Shown in pieces: positions 18,518 to 27,535 of a stretch of DNA of 27,815 nucleotides; position 1 is the first letter of the stretch, and each line of letters starts with the position of its first letter. A model generated the notes under the pieces. It saw only the letters and a list, made by a program, of their open reading frames with translations. It was not told the origin of the DNA and ran no database searches. The DNA comes from a virus: IMG/VR virus record IMGVR_UViG_3300042542_001474, positions 1 through 27,815 of that record; one strand, 5' to 3'. A program made the position numbers and the translations under genes.

Positions 18518-19063
18518 TTATCCCAGTAGTCCTAGAGAAACACCCTTGACGAGATCTGTAACCTTATCGGTCACATAACTTCCAGCAAATGCCTTAAAAA
18601 TATTACTTGTTCCCAGAAGGTCTGACATATTACCTTCCGAAGAAAGAATATTAGTCTCATTACCAATAATGTCTATCTGACTTGTTCTTCCTTCTTCTTC
18701 ATAACCAATACGAATCTTACGAGATTGAAGAACTAGTTCATCAGCAGCTTCAAGAACAATCTGCTTTCCTTTAATTCTAATAAATCCAGTATCGGCATTC
18801 ATTGCCAGGTCGCCCTTATGAGCAACCAACATATAACTCACATCACCTTCACTGTTCTTGACGCCACACTCAACCTGAAGTGTTTTTTCGGCATAGTGAC
18901 GAGAAAGACCACTCTGATAAAGTCCTTGATTATACTTTATACCAGACTCATTTTGTGCCTGTATAGTGTAAGAAGTTTTTCCAGCAACTCCTACTTGAGA
19001 TCCACCCGTTTCAAGAAACAGATTTGGTCCAAATACATCTATAGATCTTGCTTCTTGCGTCAT
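18518..19063 (-). CDS. Putative baseplate/spike-associated protein (181 aa)
   Basis: I start it at ATG 19063-19061 (MTQEARSIDVFGPNLFLETG), overlapping the TGA of the 735-residue gene as ATGA; the longer frame starts with TTG. The middle is regularly beta: VSYMLVAHKGDLAMNADTG, then FIRIKGKQIVLEAADELVLQ and SRKIRIGYEEEGR. Strands of this length and spacing resemble the triple-stranded beta-helix spikes of T4-type tails. The C-terminus is helical. With gp5-like and hub genes nearby, a role in the spike or baseplate is plausible, but no specific homologue is recognised. Confidence 0.65.
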   Translation of the reverse strand: MTQEARSIDVFGPNLFLETGGSQVGVAGKTSYTIQAQNESGIKYNQGLYQSGLSRHYAEKTLQVECGVKNSEGDVSYMLVAHKGDLAMNADTGFIRIKGKQIVLEAADELVLQSRKIRIGYEEEGRTSQIDIIGNETNILSSEGNMSDLLGTSNIFKAFAGSYVTDKVTDLVKGVSLGLLG

Positions 19064-21267
19064 AATACACAATCAATAACTCTTACGACCTCTGTTTGTG
19101 GTCTTTGTGTAGTCGTCATAACAGGTCGCAGGATTGCTCCAGAACCAGTTAGTGTCCTAATATTTAGTTCTGGCAGGGACTGATAGGTGCTCTGCTTTCT
19201 AATCTCAACTGTTGATACTCTACCACCACTGAATGTAACCTTAACATCGTCATTCTCAACTACATCATTATCAGCATATCCACTACCAGGATTCTCAATT
19301 ACCACAGTACCAATATAAGATTCTTCTGGTGCTTCTGCTGGATAGTTTTCACCTTCACTGAATACAACGACAGATGTCACCTGACCATAGGTTGGTGAAT
19401 TTTGATTTGTATCAATGATTGCTCTACCATAGGCACCATATCCCTGCTCACACCCATCACTAAAGGCAACAAATGGAGCATCTGTATATCCTTCTCCAGG
19501 TCTTGTGATGTTTACACCGATGATACTTGCGGTCTTCTGAACTCCACCAAAAATATCATCTTTGTCTATCTTATTAATGAAGTTGCCAAGAATAACCTGT
19601 CCAGACGCACCAGCACCACCACCACCGAAGAATTCAACTTTAGGCGCTCCACACTTAAAGATGTTTCCAGTATTACATGGTGGTAGTTCTGAACCAGAGT
19701 CACCAACGGTCTCACCAAAGATAGACCATTTTCCATACTGTCTTTGGAAGTCACCAATAAGATTTCCAGCACCTTCAGACAGTGAATAATCAAGTGCCTT
19801 ATCTAGTAAGTCTTTCTGTTGAGTATTGTCCTTATCCTTTTGAACACCCTTATCAATCACATACTTATAAGTTGTTGGGCACTTCTTCTTCTCACCGCAT
19901 TTGAATAGATTGGCAATCTTACGAATCGTATTAATTCCTTTCAAAATTGCGTCTCGTAGATTAAACACCACTCCAATAATTTTTGAGATTGGTCCAAGAA
20001 GTGGTCCAATGAAAGAATCAATAAGACCAGTAATCTTTGATGTAAGTGCTCCAATGAATTCTTGTACGGCACAGACAGGAACATTGAGAACATTCTTGAC
20101 CATACTGACAATCATATCCTCAATCATACCAACCAATGCGTCTGATATTTTGGCAACCAGACATTTAATTGCGTCAAATAATTTCTTGGAGAAATTTAGT
20201 ATCTCTGATTGAACACCAATCACTTTTGCTAAAGCTTCAATTGGATTGGAAATGGCATTAAAGATCTTTTGAGCAATACCAGCAAGACCTCCATTAATCC
20301 ATTTGACCAGTGCTTTTGTCACCGTGTTCATGATCTGCCCAATAAACTGTTTGGAAGCAGTTCCAATCAAATCAACAACTGATTTGATTTCTCCAGGTAG
20401 ATTTAGAACAAAATTACCAGCTTTTGTAATCTTTTTAAAGAAGTTTTGGAGGAATGATTCAACTTGGGCAAAGAAGTTATTTTTACAAGGATCAGCAAGA
20501 ATAACAGAATTGCCTGTGGTTTCTGATGCTGGATCAACATCTGGTTTTTTTCTTCTCTTCCATTCTTCTTGCCTCTGTTGCCATGCTACAAATTCTTCTG
20601 CCGAAAACTTATCCTTCTCTTCCTTTGTATATGGTTCTACACTTCCAAATTGATCTGGATATTGTTTTTTAAGAAAATCAATTGTACTTTCCCACTCTGG
20701 TGGATTGTCTTCTATTAATTGAGTAAAAGATTCAATCTGATCTTTTGTCAGTTCTTCTGCTTTTGGTATTGGACTCTCTGTTGCTTCTTGTCCTGGTTGT
20801 GGTGTTTCTGCTTGTCCTGGTTGCGGTGTTTCTGCTTGTCCTGGTTGCGGTGTTTGTGTTGTAGGTGGTGGAGTTGGTGTTCTTCTTGGAGTTGTAGTGG
20901 GTCCAACAGGACTTCCTTTTTTAAATTCTCCAAGATATTCTACTTTAATATTATTTAAAACACCAGGACGCAATGTTCCTGTTGGTGATAATGATCTAAA
21001 AGATGCTTGACTTAAATCAATTACTCTCCCAGGTTTTAGTGATCCTACATCATTGAGTTTTACTAAAATTGATTTTCTTGTATCTAGATTTGTAACACGG
21101 GCATATCCAAGTTGTTTTGTTTTTTCCGGAACACCAAACTGATTTCTAATGTCTATTTGAATCGCTGCGCTATATTCTTCAGTATTGAAACGATCACCTT
21201 GTGAAGTTCTATTGCCCTGAAAACCAGGACCATAATAAGTTGCCTGACCTTTTACGAAATCTGCCAT
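19060..21267 (-). CDS. Large tail/baseplate protein with N-terminal RlpA-like barrel (735 aa)
   Basis: Residues 5-112 follow the RlpA/double-psi beta-barrel pattern: ATYYGPGFQGNRTSQGDRF, a central ARVTNLDTRKSILVKLNDVG and RVIDLSQASFRSL. Asp73 and Asp84 of the barrel are kept, but the TAAHRTLP block of active RlpA is changed (SAAIQIDIR), so activity is uncertain. A Pro/Thr linker with three AETPQPGQ repeats follows (about 137-160). Residues 250-470 are helical with many hydrophobic, Gly/Ile/Val-rich stretches and 'CLVAK', 'CAVQEFIGAL', 'FKCGEKKKCP' cysteines. The C-terminus is beta-rich with GEGYT and GSGYADN turns. SD AGGAGG and a late promoter lie upstream. It sits between the gp5-like and spike-like genes, so a baseplate hub or wedge role fits. 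Confidence 0.75.
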   Translation of the reverse strand: MADFVKGQATYYGPGFQGNRTSQGDRFNTEEYSAAIQIDIRNQFGVPEKTKQLGYARVTNLDTRKSILVKLNDVGSLKPGRVIDLSQASFRSLSPTGTLRPGVLNNIKVEYLGEFKKGSPVGPTTTPRRTPTPPPTTQTPQPGQAETPQPGQAETPQPGQEATESPIPKAEELTKDQIESFTQLIEDNPPEWESTIDFLKKQYPDQFGSVEPYTKEEKDKFSAEEFVAWQQRQEEWKRRKKPDVDPASETTGNSVILADPCKNNFFAQVESFLQNFFKKITKAGNFVLNLPGEIKSVVDLIGTASKQFIGQIMNTVTKALVKWINGGLAGIAQKIFNAISNPIEALAKVIGVQSEILNFSKKLFDAIKCLVAKISDALVGMIEDMIVSMVKNVLNVPVCAVQEFIGALTSKITGLIDSFIGPLLGPISKIIGVVFNLRDAILKGINTIRKIANLFKCGEKKKCPTTYKYVIDKGVQKDKDNTQQKDLLDKALDYSLSEGAGNLIGDFQRQYGKWSIFGETVGDSGSELPPCNTGNIFKCGAPKVEFFGGGGAGASGQVILGNFINKIDKDDIFGGVQKTASIIGVNITRPGEGYTDAPFVAFSDGCEQGYGAYGRAIIDTNQNSPTYGQVTSVVVFSEGENYPAEAPEESYIGTVVIENPGSGYADNDVVENDDVKVTFSGGRVSTVEIRKQSTYQSLPELNIRTLTGSGAILRPVMTTTQRPQTEVVRVIDCVL
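20787..20858 (-). repeat. Three tandem 24-bp repeats (AETPQPGQ linker)
   Basis: Units at 20787-20810, 20811-20834 and 20835-20858 differ by only one or two bases. On the minus strand each encodes AETPQPGQ in the proline-rich linker of the 735-residue protein. Whole-codon units mean copy number can change without breaking the frame. Confidence 0.9.
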
Positions 21268-22196: not shown

Positions 22197-23459
22197 TTAC
22201 TTCTTATACAATCCGTAAGTGTCTCTCACTAAAGTTAATGATGTAAATGATCTCTTTGGATCAAAACTATGACACAAATGTGCTATTAGATATTTACCAC
22301 TTTGGTGCTCATCAAATGCCCCTAGGTTTTTATTTTCTACCGTAACCTTCTCAAAGAAACAATTTACAACATCACCCGCTTTTAATTGCGGATTACAAGG
22401 TACTACTATATTTAAACCTTGAGTGAACAGAAGATTATATCTCATTGAGGATCTTGCTTGCCACTCTCTAGGATCATTATTCACATTAATACTAATTTCA
22501 GAGTCCATACTACCAACATCTAAAATATGATAATGTATTCTTGTGAAATTATCAAGATCCACTGGAATGTCTACTTGCTTTCCAAGATATGTTTCCAGTT
22601 TTTGATCACTCAATTTTACAATTTTTTCACTATACTCATAATTGTATGGATTAAAGAATATATTTTTAGAGGCATAGACCCCAGATCTCAAAGCATTTAT
22701 AGTATTTTGATTCTTAAATGGTTTTAGAGAAAGAATTTTAAAATCATTATCATCATCTGCTCTTAATACTGAATTTCTTACATAAGTTGCCTTTGGAGCC
22801 TGCGAGATCAATTTTGTTATTGATTTAAAGTTGACTCCATCAGCGGTTTCATAAAAGAAATAACCAGGATCTTTACCATCTGCTGGAATAGATTTTGATG
22901 CCAATTCCAAAACAACTTTAAAGGCATCTTTACCACTACCATTAAAGTTATATGGTATTTTTGTGTCATCAATAAAAATTTTATTCTTTTTAATTTTTAA
23001 GTTTTGCTCCAGAATACTTCTAACACTATCGGATATTTTACCAGTGTACTTTCTGTATACAATAGATTTTTCATTTAGTACTGATAATCTTGATGTTAAG
23101 GCAATCGCAAATGCTTCTCTATTTGCTTCTTGTGCGGCAACTGGAGCTCCATTAACAACCAATGGATTTAATTCAAAGTCTAGAGTGCCTTGTTTAGATC
23201 TAATCTTAAATTCAACATTTTCATTTCCAGTAATTGGTAGTGAGTTGACAATTGATCCAACCCTACCTTGACTGTCTTGTGCTCTATCAGTCGGAACTGG
23301 TGAACTACCAGTGTCAACTAATACCATGTTGGCAGTTACAACAGGAGAAAAAAGACTTTCATAATACTTAAATGAAATCGTTTTGCCAGCAAGATCTACT
23401 CTCTTTCCATTTCGGTCAATGAATAAGTGTTCGTATAAAGAGGATACTGATGCTGACAT
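22197..23459 (-). CDS. gp27-like baseplate hub protein (420 aa)
   Basis: MSASVSSLYEHLFIDRNGKR opens a protein of T4 gp27-like length (391 in T4). It has features expected of hub proteins of the gp27/gpD type: an N-terminal beta domain (DLAGKTISFKYYESLFSPVV), a central region with YRKYTGKISDSVRSILEQ and FKVVLELASKSIP of the type that forms the tail-tube-like ring, a segment YFFYETADGVNFKSI typical of hub folds, and a C-terminal barrel (VVPCNPQLKAGDVVNCFFEK) ending SFDPKRSFTSLTLVRD. Such C-terminal 'TSLTLVRDTY' endings occur in phage hub proteins. Downstream is the gp5-like partner. Role: central hub ring of the baseplate. Confidence 0.75.
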   Translation of the reverse strand: MSASVSSLYEHLFIDRNGKRVDLAGKTISFKYYESLFSPVVTANMVLVDTGSSPVPTDRAQDSQGRVGSIVNSLPITGNENVEFKIRSKQGTLDFELNPLVVNGAPVAAQEANREAFAIALTSRLSVLNEKSIVYRKYTGKISDSVRSILEQNLKIKKNKIFIDDTKIPYNFNGSGKDAFKVVLELASKSIPADGKDPGYFFYETADGVNFKSITKLISQAPKATYVRNSVLRADDDNDFKILSLKPFKNQNTINALRSGVYASKNIFFNPYNYEYSEKIVKLSDQKLETYLGKQVDIPVDLDNFTRIHYHILDVGSMDSEISINVNNDPREWQARSSMRYNLLFTQGLNIVVPCNPQLKAGDVVNCFFEKVTVENKNLGAFDEHQSGKYLIAHLCHSFDPKRSFTSLTLVRDTYGLYKK

Positions 23460-23464
23460 TTATT

Positions 23465-25066
23465 TTAAGATAAAAGTAAAGGATTGATTTCTGGTATAAA
23501 ATTGTTTGATGATTCACTATTACTATTTACTTGTACTGGCATTGGAAATGGAACTGGTTTTTCTATAATTTGTGTAATGAGAAAATCAACTCCACCCCCC
23601 ATTGCCAACAAAGAGTCTTCTGGATTTGTTCCGATTTTTGTACTCGTTTGTAATGGTTTTACTTGTTTTTGTTTATCTTTTATTTTTTTAAGGGCACTTG
23701 GTGTGGGTCCACTACTTAAGTGCCCTAACAAATACTTATTTCCACTTTCATCAATAATAATTAGACTATTTCCATATCCCCCGTTGTATCCTTCATCATA
23801 CTCTATAAATTTTAGATTTGATCCAATACTAATTGGAGATCCTGTATTTGCCGAATAATCAAATCCTTTATGACCTCTTCCAGCGCCAAGACCATCTCCT
23901 TGTGATAATTTGCTCAAAGGAACTCCACCAATAAAAACATTATCAAGAACATTTTTTGGAATTGTTCCACCAGCACCGCCACGGCCATCTCCTGTTTCAA
24001 TGTGTAAATGTGGTCCCGTAGAATAACCCGTGCTTCCAATCGCTCCGAGTATATCGGTAGGATCAACTTTAACACCACTTGGGGCATTTACTCCACCAGA
24101 TGTTGGTGAAGGTGGAGTTCTTCTAGCACTAGATGGTATTTTTGAAGTTGGAGGTTTCTTATCTTTGTCTTCTCTATCTTTTAAATTAATTAAAAATTGA
24201 TTAAAACTTTCATTAACGTCAGTGAAGTTTTCATTGACACCTCCTTTACCATCAAGAAGAATTGAATGTTCTTTAAGTTGTTCGGTAACAGTCGCAAATG
24301 TGCCAAAAGCATTAGTGCTTTCAATTGCTTTTCTTCCCATTGGGCTTGGAGTGGCTCCCCTGAATGTCCCAGTAGTTGTACTTTTTGTGGTTTGTTTTTT
24401 TGCTGGTTTTGATCCACTTGGTTTTCTTACCGTTCCACCTCTAGATTTTTTTTGAGTATCCTGTGACTCATCTGGATTTTTTGTCGGAGAATTATCTTCT
24501 GGTTTAGAATTGGTAGATTTAGAGTTAAGGTCTTTATCAAGTTTAGTATACTCAAGATTCATTGGATCAATAATTTTGTCAAGTTCAAGAATAAATTTTT
24601 CTAATTTATCTTTTTCCTCTATAAGTTTTCTTTTTGTTATTTCGGGAAAACTCTGAATAATACTTATAAATCCATTGACACCATTTACTGTCGCCTCAAC
24701 TACTTTAATAATTGAATTTGCAACATTTATGAGTGTTTCTCCCACTTCAGTAACTTTATTAATAATTTGTGGAAGATTATTAATCACCAATCCCAAAAAT
24801 ACAATACCAAAAAACTCTTTAACCTTGTCAAAGAAACCCAGTGGTCCAGAAAGCAGTTTAGATTTTATTTTTTCAAGAGGTTGTTGAACAATATCTTTAC
24901 CCTCTATTTTTTCCTCCTTTTTTCTCAATTTCTTCTCTTTATCCTCATTAAAAGAAAAACGAAATTCATCCTTCCTCAATTTAATCGCTTGCTTATTATA
25001 ATTAACTAAGGTATTTTTTATATTCGTAGCATTGATTTTTAATTTTTGTAGTTGTACTTGTTCCAT
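23465..25066 (-). CDS. Tape-measure-region protein with permuted M23 peptidase-like domain (533 aa)
   Basis: The N-terminal third is helical and charged (EDKEKKLRKKEEKIEGKD), with one hydrophobic segment FFGIVFLGLVINNLPQII (86-103) shared with the preceding gene, then Ser/Thr/Lys/Pro-rich linkers (185-245). Residues 331-452 hold all M23/lysostaphin-type motifs but in switched order: first IGSTGYSTGPHLHIE (343-357, the normal C-terminal block with the HxH zinc ligand), then, after a Gly-rich linker, GRGHKGFDYS (397-405, the normal N-terminal HxxxD ligands), then GGYGNSLIIIDESGNKYLLG with His449 in GHLSS. All zinc and catalytic residues appear kept, so it may cut peptidoglycan peptide bridges during DNA entry. 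It follows the related 524-residue gene after 3 nt. Confidence 0.8.
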   Translation of the reverse strand: MEQVQLQKLKINATNIKNTLVNYNKQAIKLRKDEFRFSFNEDKEKKLRKKEEKIEGKDIVQQPLEKIKSKLLSGPLGFFDKVKEFFGIVFLGLVINNLPQIINKVTEVGETLINVANSIIKVVEATVNGVNGFISIIQSFPEITKRKLIEEKDKLEKFILELDKIIDPMNLEYTKLDKDLNSKSTNSKPEDNSPTKNPDESQDTQKKSRGGTVRKPSGSKPAKKQTTKSTTTGTFRGATPSPMGRKAIESTNAFGTFATVTEQLKEHSILLDGKGGVNENFTDVNESFNQFLINLKDREDKDKKPPTSKIPSSARRTPPSPTSGGVNAPSGVKVDPTDILGAIGSTGYSTGPHLHIETGDGRGGAGGTIPKNVLDNVFIGGVPLSKLSQGDGLGAGRGHKGFDYSANTGSPISIGSNLKFIEYDEGYNGGYGNSLIIIDESGNKYLLGHLSSGPTPSALKKIKDKQKQVKPLQTSTKIGTNPEDSLLAMGGGVDFLITQIIEKPVPFPMPVQVNSNSESSNNFIPEINPLLLS

Positions 25067-25069
25067 ATC

Positions 25070-26644
25070 TTATACAAAAATTCCATACATTCTTGGTGTG
25101 AGCATCATATAGTCATTTGCTAGATTTACACTTGAAATATCTGGTTCATCAGTTGCCATACCACCATCAATTGCTGGCATTTTATAATTAGCAGTTTTTG
25201 TTGGTAATGTAATTGGAATCGTCGTTCTAGTTGCTGGTCTCGTTGGTTTTTTGAGATCAGAATGAATTATAGTGGTAGGTAAAACTAATGTTGTAATAGA
25301 ATCTTTTGATGGCGTTCTTAATCCATATCCGCCACCACCTGCTTTTTTAGACTTTTCAAGTTTTTCCTGATTGACAAAATCATCTAATTGCTTTTTAAAA
25401 GTCTCTAGATTTCTACTCAATTCATCTAAAGCATAACGCATAGTTTCATTATAAGAAATCATATTGCGGATAGCATTACTGAATGTAATCCACATTCTTC
25501 CAGCATTATTATTAATGTCCTTCAACAATGGTCTAAACATCATTGCTGCTGATGTGCGAATGACTTCCTCACCAGGAGCGAGCATTGTTCGGACACTATC
25601 AACCAATCCAGATCCTGCTCCACCAACTGTTCCACCTTCAGAGAACTTTTGAGTTATATTTTGATATTGTTTTACTATACTTGTTTTAAAATTATATGAA
25701 GATAAATTAGGTATAGTTCCACCTTTAGATCTTGTTGTTGGAACTAATGGTCCAGCACCACCCGCTTGTTGTGCTTCAGCAACATCTCTAATAAATTTTA
25801 AAAATGGATTATTTCTCGTTCTTTCATATTCTTGAATTACTTCTTCTTTTTTTATACCTCTTCTTGCTGCTTCTTTTTCAGATGCTTTATTAAAAATTTC
25901 TTTTTCTTTTTGATTTATATAATTTTGTGCTGCGATAGCTGCTACAATTCCAGCAGCATTAAGAAACGCGGAACTTAATAAAACTGCCGATACTAATTGA
26001 ATAGCAGTTAACAAACTAGCAATAGTAGAAACTAATTGGAGTCCTATCAAAACTCCAAAAATTTCTTTCCAATATTTCCCTACAAAACCAAGAGTCTCTG
26101 ATAGTTTCTTTTGATTATTTTTATCAGACAACCAATTAAAAGCATTATTAACAACCAATCCAGTTACAATTATACCAAAAAAATCTAATAACTTCTGAAA
26201 TATGCTTTTAGCGGGGGCAGTTACTTTATCAAAAAAATTACCAACTCCACTACCAAACTTATTCAAAGATTCAATAGATTGTTCTTTCCTAGTTATTTTT
26301 TCTTTTTCTGCTTTTCTCTTTTTACCGCGAATTATATCTTTTCTCTCTACAATTCTTGAAGCAAAATCTAATGCCAATTGCTTTTGAATTTCTACAAGAA
26401 TTTTATTTGTTTCTACAAGAGTTTCATATACCTTATTTCCAGAAATTGTCTCTGATTCTGATGAAGTTTCAACTTGAGAAGTTAGTGTAGGAGTCTGAAT
26501 TCTTGGTTTTATAAAACTAAAAGATGATTTTCTCAATCTTGGAGCAGCAACAGATTGAGCACCACGAATTATGGGAGAAGAAATATTTCTTCTACTAATC
26601 TTTGGTAGTGATGGTGCCTTATAAATCGGACTATCAAATTCCAC
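25070..26644 (-). CDS. Putative tape-measure/hub-length protein (524 aa)
   Basis: The gene starts with GTG at 26644-26642 (MEFDSPIYKAPSLPKISRRN); AAAGG upstream is a possible SD, and it overlaps the small chaperone frame by 11 nt. Residues 1-60 are basic/Pro/Ser-rich. Helical, charged segments (70-130) follow, then two hydrophobic regions, FFGIIVTGLVVNNAF (155-169) and a long 196-240 stretch (FGVLIGLQLVSTIASLLTAI and onward) of membrane-span type. Later SEGGTVGGAGSGLVDSVRTM and LAPGEEVIRTSAAMMFRPLL (335-374) match the 'GG.V.G.GSG.DSV..ML.PGE.V' block common in tape-measure proteins. Its position right after the tail chaperone frames is where lambda-like phages place the tape measure. T4's gp29 is of similar length. 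Confidence 0.7.
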   Translation of the reverse strand: MEFDSPIYKAPSLPKISRRNISSPIIRGAQSVAAPRLRKSSFSFIKPRIQTPTLTSQVETSSESETISGNKVYETLVETNKILVEIQKQLALDFASRIVERKDIIRGKKRKAEKEKITRKEQSIESLNKFGSGVGNFFDKVTAPAKSIFQKLLDFFGIIVTGLVVNNAFNWLSDKNNQKKLSETLGFVGKYWKEIFGVLIGLQLVSTIASLLTAIQLVSAVLLSSAFLNAAGIVAAIAAQNYINQKEKEIFNKASEKEAARRGIKKEEVIQEYERTRNNPFLKFIRDVAEAQQAGGAGPLVPTTRSKGGTIPNLSSYNFKTSIVKQYQNITQKFSEGGTVGGAGSGLVDSVRTMLAPGEEVIRTSAAMMFRPLLKDINNNAGRMWITFSNAIRNMISYNETMRYALDELSRNLETFKKQLDDFVNQEKLEKSKKAGGGGYGLRTPSKDSITTLVLPTTIIHSDLKKPTRPATRTTIPITLPTKTANYKMPAIDGGMATDEPDISSVNLANDYMMLTPRMYGIFV

Positions 26645-26812: not shown

Positions 26813-27535
26813 TCAAGTGAAAAAACTCGCAAGACCCTCCAGGACAATATCACTTTCAATTTTTGTATTTGGATTCTTAACTTTGATTGTATGGGAAAGT
26901 TTAGGCATCGTCACAAAAAAGTTTTCAATTTCTTTGAATTGTTTTGTGTTCATTTGCTCCACGAACTCTTCAAGTTCTTTTTTAGTACAGTCAGCAGCAC
27001 TCCAAGATTCTTCTTCATCATAAACCATATCAATACAAGATGTAATCATTGAAAGTGACTTGTTTACATCAGAGTCAGTCTCATTAACTTCAAAGTTATT
27101 TTCAACAAATTGTTCTAGTGATGGATACTTTAATTTCATTGAAAGTCTATCATCAATTTTCACAATATTTGAATGATTTGGATCCTTCTGTACTTTAATA
27201 TCATCAATGTTAATTTCCATTTGAACTTGAGTCTCACCATCATCTGGGCAAGTCACATTGACCTCAACAGTTTCACCAACAGATTTGGCACGGACGTTCA
27301 GGAACAAATATTCAATATCAAATGTTGAAAGTTCAGAAACTTTTACTGTTTTTGTGGCAATACAATCAGAAAGAATCTGAACAATCGCATTTGAAATCTG
27401 TTTCGTATCTTCAGATTCCAATGCCATAATAAGAATCTTTTCTTCTCTCACTAGAAATGGTCTGTATCTAATTTTCTTTCCAGTAGAGGGCAATTCCAAC
27501 TCATACGTTGGTGTAGAGATCTTTGGTAAAGGCAT
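26813..27535 (-). CDS. gp26-like tail/baseplate chaperone (240 aa)
   Basis: The N-terminus (PTYELELPSTGKKIRYRPFL, then VREEKILIMALESEDTKQIS) matches the opening of the T4 gp26/'T4_baseplate' family as I know it, with the 'RPFLVREEKILLMA' core, and a later CPDDGETQVQMEINIDDIKV block. In T4, gp26 acts in hub assembly. Here it is followed at its 3' end by a slippery T TTT TTC at 26825-26819, and the next gene is a small chaperone in the -1 frame, the layout of lambda G and G-T. It has a late promoter upstream and ends in TGA 26815-26813. Family call good; the exact step in tail assembly is inferred. Confidence 0.83.
   Translation of the reverse strand: MPLPKISTPTYELELPSTGKKIRYRPFLVREEKILIMALESEDTKQISNAIVQILSDCIATKTVKVSELSTFDIEYLFLNVRAKSVGETVEVNVTCPDDGETQVQMEINIDDIKVQKDPNHSNIVKIDDRLSMKLKYPSLEQFVENNFEVNETDSDVNKSLSMITSCIDMVYDEEESWSAADCTKKELEEFVEQMNTKQFKEIENFFVTMPKLSHTIKVKNPNTKIESDIVLEGLASFFT
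26819..26825 (-). other. Putative -1 ribosomal frameshift site (T TTT TTC)
   Basis: In the gp26-like reading frame the codons read AGT TTT TTC ACT TGA. The heptamer T TTT TTC is a classic X XXY YYZ slip site. A -1 slip gives TTT TTT CAC TTG AGT ATG, which is open straight into the small chaperone frame at 26810. Confidence 0.65.

Follow-up and report, generated by a model that had tools for sequence, protein, structure and literature searches.

The 27.8-kb virus record analysed here in full (hereafter the window) is of the T4-like cyanophage type, and it encodes a 533-aa protein in which the two blocks of an M23 peptidase occur in reverse order. Our best reading, to which we assign a probability of about 0.83, is that this is an M23 endopeptidase with a circularly permuted chain, probably active, that would open the peptidoglycan during injection; both its activity and its location in the virion are what we infer from the data below. 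The initial annotation had proposed a true circular permutation and not decay. We too favor this reading, because rotation of the domain restores a full-length M23 match, because the predicted model is compact with its strands in rotated order, and because the arrangement is kept in synteny in divergent relatives.

Gene neighbourhood and architecture of the domain

On the minus strand of the window the gene order is gp26, a 524-aa GC13-like protein, the 533-aa protein, GC15, a 297-aa gp5-like protein and a 735-aa hub protein. The gp26 shares 74% identity with its counterpart in Marine virus AG-345-L05 and about 65% with those of cultured Kyanoviridae. In cultured cyanophages, GC14 is the name for the slot between GC13 and GC15. 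The 533-aa protein occupies this slot downstream of gp26 and has a related N-terminal region, and we treat it as a GC14 protein. The features are as follows.

26813..27535, minus strand: gp26 baseplate hub protein, the synteny anchor (PF12322, E 1.6e-74)
25070..26644, minus strand: GC13-like protein, 524 aa, upstream neighbour of the 533-aa gene (position kept in relatives)
23465..25066, minus strand: 533-aa protein of the hub/tape-measure region, in the GC14 slot, carrying the permuted M23 (open reading frame and synteny)
24527..25066, minus strand: N-terminal region, residues 1-180, hydrophobic/helical (BLASTP to GC14 of S-T4 and P-SSM2)
23993..24079, minus strand: M23 block B, residues 330-358, SGVKVDPTDILGAIGSTGYSTGPHLHIET, normally C-terminal and here first (PF01551 HMM positions 59-87)
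24008-24010, minus strand: H353 codon in block B (sequence checked)
24002-24004, minus strand: H355 codon in block B (sequence checked)
23882..23992, minus strand: linker, residues 359-395, bridging the ancestral C- and N-termini (alignments)
23711..23881, minus strand: M23 block A, residues 396-452, GRGHKGFDYS...GGYGN...KYLLGHLSS, normally N-terminal and here second (PF01551 match)
23870-23872, minus strand: H399 codon in block A (sequence checked)
23858-23860, minus strand: D403 codon in block A (sequence checked)
23720-23722, minus strand: H449 codon in block A (sequence checked)
22197..23459, minus strand: GC15 tail/hub protein, downstream neighbour of the 533-aa gene (phrog_350, E 8.9e-87)

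Against PF01551 the 533-aa protein scores 34.8 bits as two stretches, which passes the gathering score of 28.7. HMM positions 59-87 precede positions 2-54, the latter matching residues 398-452 (23711-23875), and this bears out the reversed order at the place where the initial annotation had read it. The HLH block lies ahead of the HxGxD...GHLS block, the reverse of the described M23 members. Because of this reversed order we speak of a permuted variant of M23 and not of an ordinary member. Four key positions (H355, H399, D403 and H449) had been listed as kept. All four are present, but the proper count is five, since H353 belongs with them: HxxxD (H399/D403), HxH (H353/H355) and the third active-site histidine (H449) are all there. 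In lysostaphin, HxxxD binds zinc through His279 and Asp283, and HxH binds it through His362 (PMC4286107). By analogy of position, H355, H399 and D403 would be the zinc ligands of the permuted domain, and H353 and H449 its catalytic histidines.

We suggest that residues from about 322 to 460 form one complete M23 zinc endopeptidase domain of the LytM/lysostaphin type with a circularly permuted chain. The ancestral N- and C-termini would be fused through about 37 linker residues, whose consensus GGAGG.IP..VL.N...G.PLS...GDG is conserved in relatives. The break that made the new termini would lie in the loop leading from the 'GHLS' strand to the 'G..IG' strand, where the initial annotation also placed it; the best rotation cut falls in the linker between the blocks.

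The rotation tests place the reversed block order far above chance. With Pfam, rotation merged two partial matches, which sum to 39.7 bits, into one full-length match of 47.9 bits (HMM 2-87). With phmmer against the PDB, a split match of 16.9 and 13.3 bits in native order became a single 49-bit stretch (E 7e-12); 22 chains then fell below 1e-3, and the score to 3slu was 49 bits. Every rotation of the domain was also scanned with a local M23 HMM built from 28 canonical M23 domains. The native order gave a best single stretch of 33.6 bits and the best rotation, cut within the linker, gave 65.1 bits, while 50 shuffles of the domain reached at most 4.3 bits. Two canonical M23 controls, both themselves in the HMM set, gained nothing from rotation. 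In profile-profile comparison with hhalign, the match went from 2.3e-14 over 49 columns in native order to 1.1e-24 over 93 columns when rotated.

As the initial annotation had proposed, the structure of the domain was predicted, and the model is a confident one in which the order of the M23 strands is rotated. AlphaFold2, given an input alignment of 13 permuted sequences only, returned one compact domain (mean pLDDT 83.3, pTM 0.81). Written in canonical core order, the strands of the model are E81-84, E90-93, E97-103, E112-118, E123-131, E20-22 and E32-38. These seven pair one to one, in rotated order, with those of the core in a control model, that of a canonical phage M23 (E13-16, E22-25, E29-37, E42-49, E53-63, E76-81 and E90-97). 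Foldseek gave no significant match for the permuted model in the PDB, and in BFVD it found four phage proteins, including those of S-TIM5 and P60 and a tape-measure protein. For the canonical control it gave 63 PDB matches at E <= 1e-3, with M23/LytM entries at the top. The absent PDB match fits a permuted topology, because Foldseek aligns in chain order. Taken alone it would equally fit a non-M23 fold, but the canonical control and the strand order of the model argue otherwise.

Conservation in relatives and the enzymes of the GC14 slot

The complete permuted domain is kept in 21 other viral contigs, at identities from 100% down to about 50%, and it adjoins gp26 and GC15 wherever the locus on the contig is long enough. 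The gp26-GC13-GC14-GC15 synteny is found in L001, L003, L017, L018, L064 and others. In the alignment of the permuted GC14 family the five active-site residues are invariant, as is much of the linker. The co-conservation of the two blocks contradicts the idea that they are separate, unrelated domains. The dN/dS of the domain is about 0.1-0.6 in seven of eight pairs, and in the close pair L019/L021, with few changes, dN is about equal to dS (0.081/0.089). Selection on the domain is mostly purifying. Since a full-length tblastn of the 533-aa protein gave no match in 50,697 phage records, there is no close relative in any isolate of that collection. In contig L066 (966-2615), identity to the window is 98-99% for GC15 and the gp5-like protein but only about 50% for GC14, which keeps the permuted M23. 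This has the look of a recombination event that replaced GC14 and left it with a permuted M23.

Residues 1-180 match the GC14 proteins of S-T4 and P-SSM2 (BLASTP without composition correction in a small sequence set, E 3e-15 and 7e-9). The S-T4 protein is annotated as a muramidase, and that of P-SSM2 has no recognised enzyme domain. Two further tail-region proteins in the GC14 slot, gp10 of Synechococcus phage B23 (QGT54638) and AIX21336 of ACG-2014f, also carry an M23 domain. Unlike in the 533-aa protein, it is in canonical order in both, and it stands alongside a tail lysozyme (PF18013) in B23 and a T4-lysozyme-like stretch, seen by eye, in ACG-2014f. We infer that the C-terminal part of GC14 is an exchangeable enzyme cassette. 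The protein ADO97357 of S-SM2 (L009:8982-11519) has an annotated transglycosylase domain and C-terminal motifs GHYEGRALDV...HPEHMHIE. By its motifs, this C-terminal part has more of a resemblance to a D-Ala-D-Ala (M15-type) peptidase, and Pfam gave no match to it. In the GC14 slot, AIX26729 of ACG-2014i (L050:2781-5666) has the motifs HGHF...QHSHSGDGRSVDIFVPKGTPV...WVGHL, which are perhaps suggestive of a far-diverged permuted M23. It gave no HMM signal above shuffles and is not counted as permuted.

Permuted M23 in other virion proteins

By sequence comparison, the permuted M23 extends beyond T4-like tails. The identical break point is found in a virion protein of S-TIM54, in tape-measure proteins of Acinetobacter and Moraxella phages, in an internal virion protein of P60 and in a tape-measure-like protein of contig L044. 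The gain from rotation is clear in these copies except that of P60, where it is weak (7.9 to 16.9 bits). The S-TIM54 protein (UYE97289) rises from 34.0 to 72.1 bits; its carrier differs from the window protein in having a C-terminal tail lysozyme, and the domains are about 29% identical. The Acinetobacter phage (Vieuvirus) and Moraxella phage domains rise from 48.2 to 70.8 and from 43.1 to 73.2 bits, and their carriers, unlike the 533-aa protein, are long TMP_3 tape-measure proteins. In these domains HLD replaces HLH, so one predicted zinc ligand would change from His to Asp. HLD is seen in the permuted M23 of L048:1961-6271, L049:1673-6055, L158:7778-10780 and L156:3941-4687, and the carriers of this type are tape-measure, internal virion and small phage proteins. 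The S-EIVl protein AHV82231 is permuted by motif order and by alignment to the Acinetobacter type, with a rotation gain of only 1.1 bits.

In a scan of bacterial genomes, full-length matches were found in Acinetobacter only. The matches outside this genus cover one half only, and those examined look canonical. In a tree of rotated domains, the GC14 set is grouped (99/99), as is the tape-measure set with S-EIVl (89/89); with about 110 alignable columns the tree leaves the relation between the two groups unsettled. A single clade of permuted domains without L037 gave AU p=0.405, which neither shows nor rejects a single origin.

L037:3923-4369 (plus strand; IMGVR_UViG_3300022682_000027) encodes a stand-alone 148-aa M23 with a different permutation. 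It starts MKYTVRYAHL... and ends ...GYGNFALIGFEA, with YAHL at the start and GYGN at the end, and rotation raises its score from 51.5 to 75.8 bits. The gene is followed by holin-like and coiled-coil spanin-type genes, as read by eye.

Proposed role, alternatives and comparison with known systems

We hypothesize that the permuted domain serves GC14, a protein of the baseplate-hub/tape-measure region, as its C-terminal enzymatic cassette. It would bind zinc and cut the peptide crosslinks of the host peptidoglycan from the virion at DNA injection, and its chemistry is expected to be that of an ordinary M23. It is plausible that it would supply the activity missing from the short gp5-like protein, as a putative role. 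The 735-aa hub protein (19060-21267, minus strand), three genes downstream of the 533-aa gene, has an N-terminal RlpA-like DPBB domain (PF03330, E 2.8e-8). This is possibly a second murein-acting domain near the gp5-like protein.

It is conceivable that the domain keeps the M23 fold but no enzyme activity and serves to bind peptidoglycan or as a structural module, much like the degenerate LytM domain of EnvC. Structural remnants are frequent in tail proteins, Asp replaces the second His of HxH in some permuted relatives, and the GC14 of P-SSM2 shows that the slot can be filled without a recognised enzyme. We nevertheless consider this improbable, given that the five active-site residues do not vary within the permuted GC14 family and that sister phages carry murein hydrolases in the slot (muramidase-annotated, or tail lysozyme with canonical M23). 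We give somewhat less credence to an active permuted M23 with a role other than wall opening at entry, for example in virion maturation or in helping lysis. The differently permuted M23 beside apparent lysis genes in L037 would be in keeping with such a role, but the gene studied here belongs to the hub/tape-measure cluster, its product has an N-terminal region in common with GC14 proteins, and the other copies with the same break point sit mostly within tape-measure, hub or internal virion proteins.

The least probable alternative is that the blocks do not form one single-chain domain, being paired between subunits by a domain swap or left over from two decayed M23 copies. Circular permutations usually arise by tandem duplication and subsequent loss of the two outer halves, and the reversed order and the long linker would suit this alternative. 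Against this, AlphaFold2 folds the single chain with a pTM of 0.81, the linker is conserved in relatives that are 50-80% identical, no second copy of either block exists within the window, and selection is mostly purifying. We favor the single-chain, probably active permuted M23 that would act on the wall at entry.

M23 is among the commonest families of wall-cutting enzymes and is a source of antimicrobial lysins. Since searches that rely on chain order break the permuted form up or overlook it, some permuted M23 domains in phage tails are probably annotated as partial M23, as structural protein or as nothing. Natural permutants also reveal a loop of M23 that is tolerant of new termini. Because one gene slot holds varied enzymes, one can test for each phage which murein bond is cut at entry. 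More tentatively, and as something we think less likely than not, the permuted M23 could be a distinct, widely spread class of injection peptidases of tailed phages. One permutation would have moved the termini so that the domain could be embedded in, or hang from, tail and ejection proteins, and it would then have spread among T4-like, T7-like and siphophage virions. Such a class would include a sub-class with an HLD zinc site, and a second, independent permutation would have given the free-standing endolysin of L037.

No earlier description of a permuted M23 was found in the open-access literature searched, in agreement with the initial annotation, which knew of none in T4-like phage tails. 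Likewise, no PDB structure with the permuted M23 order was found with Foldseek. Circular permutation is known in another superfamily of cell-wall peptidases, NlpC/P60 (PMC6403190). The permuted YaeF/LRAT-like hydrolases of that superfamily have circular permutation in a cell-wall peptidase in common with the window domain, but theirs is a cysteine peptidase fold that is unrelated to M23. With the M23 family itself (PF01551; LytM, lysostaphin, ShyA, NMB0315) the window domain shares HxxxD, HxH, the third histidine and the seven strands of the model, and it differs in its reversed block order, with new termini after GHLS. What is new here is the permuted M23 topology and its recurrence in phage virion proteins; that related phages keep it and that different tail and injection proteins have it in common suggests a functional variant that has been overlooked so far.
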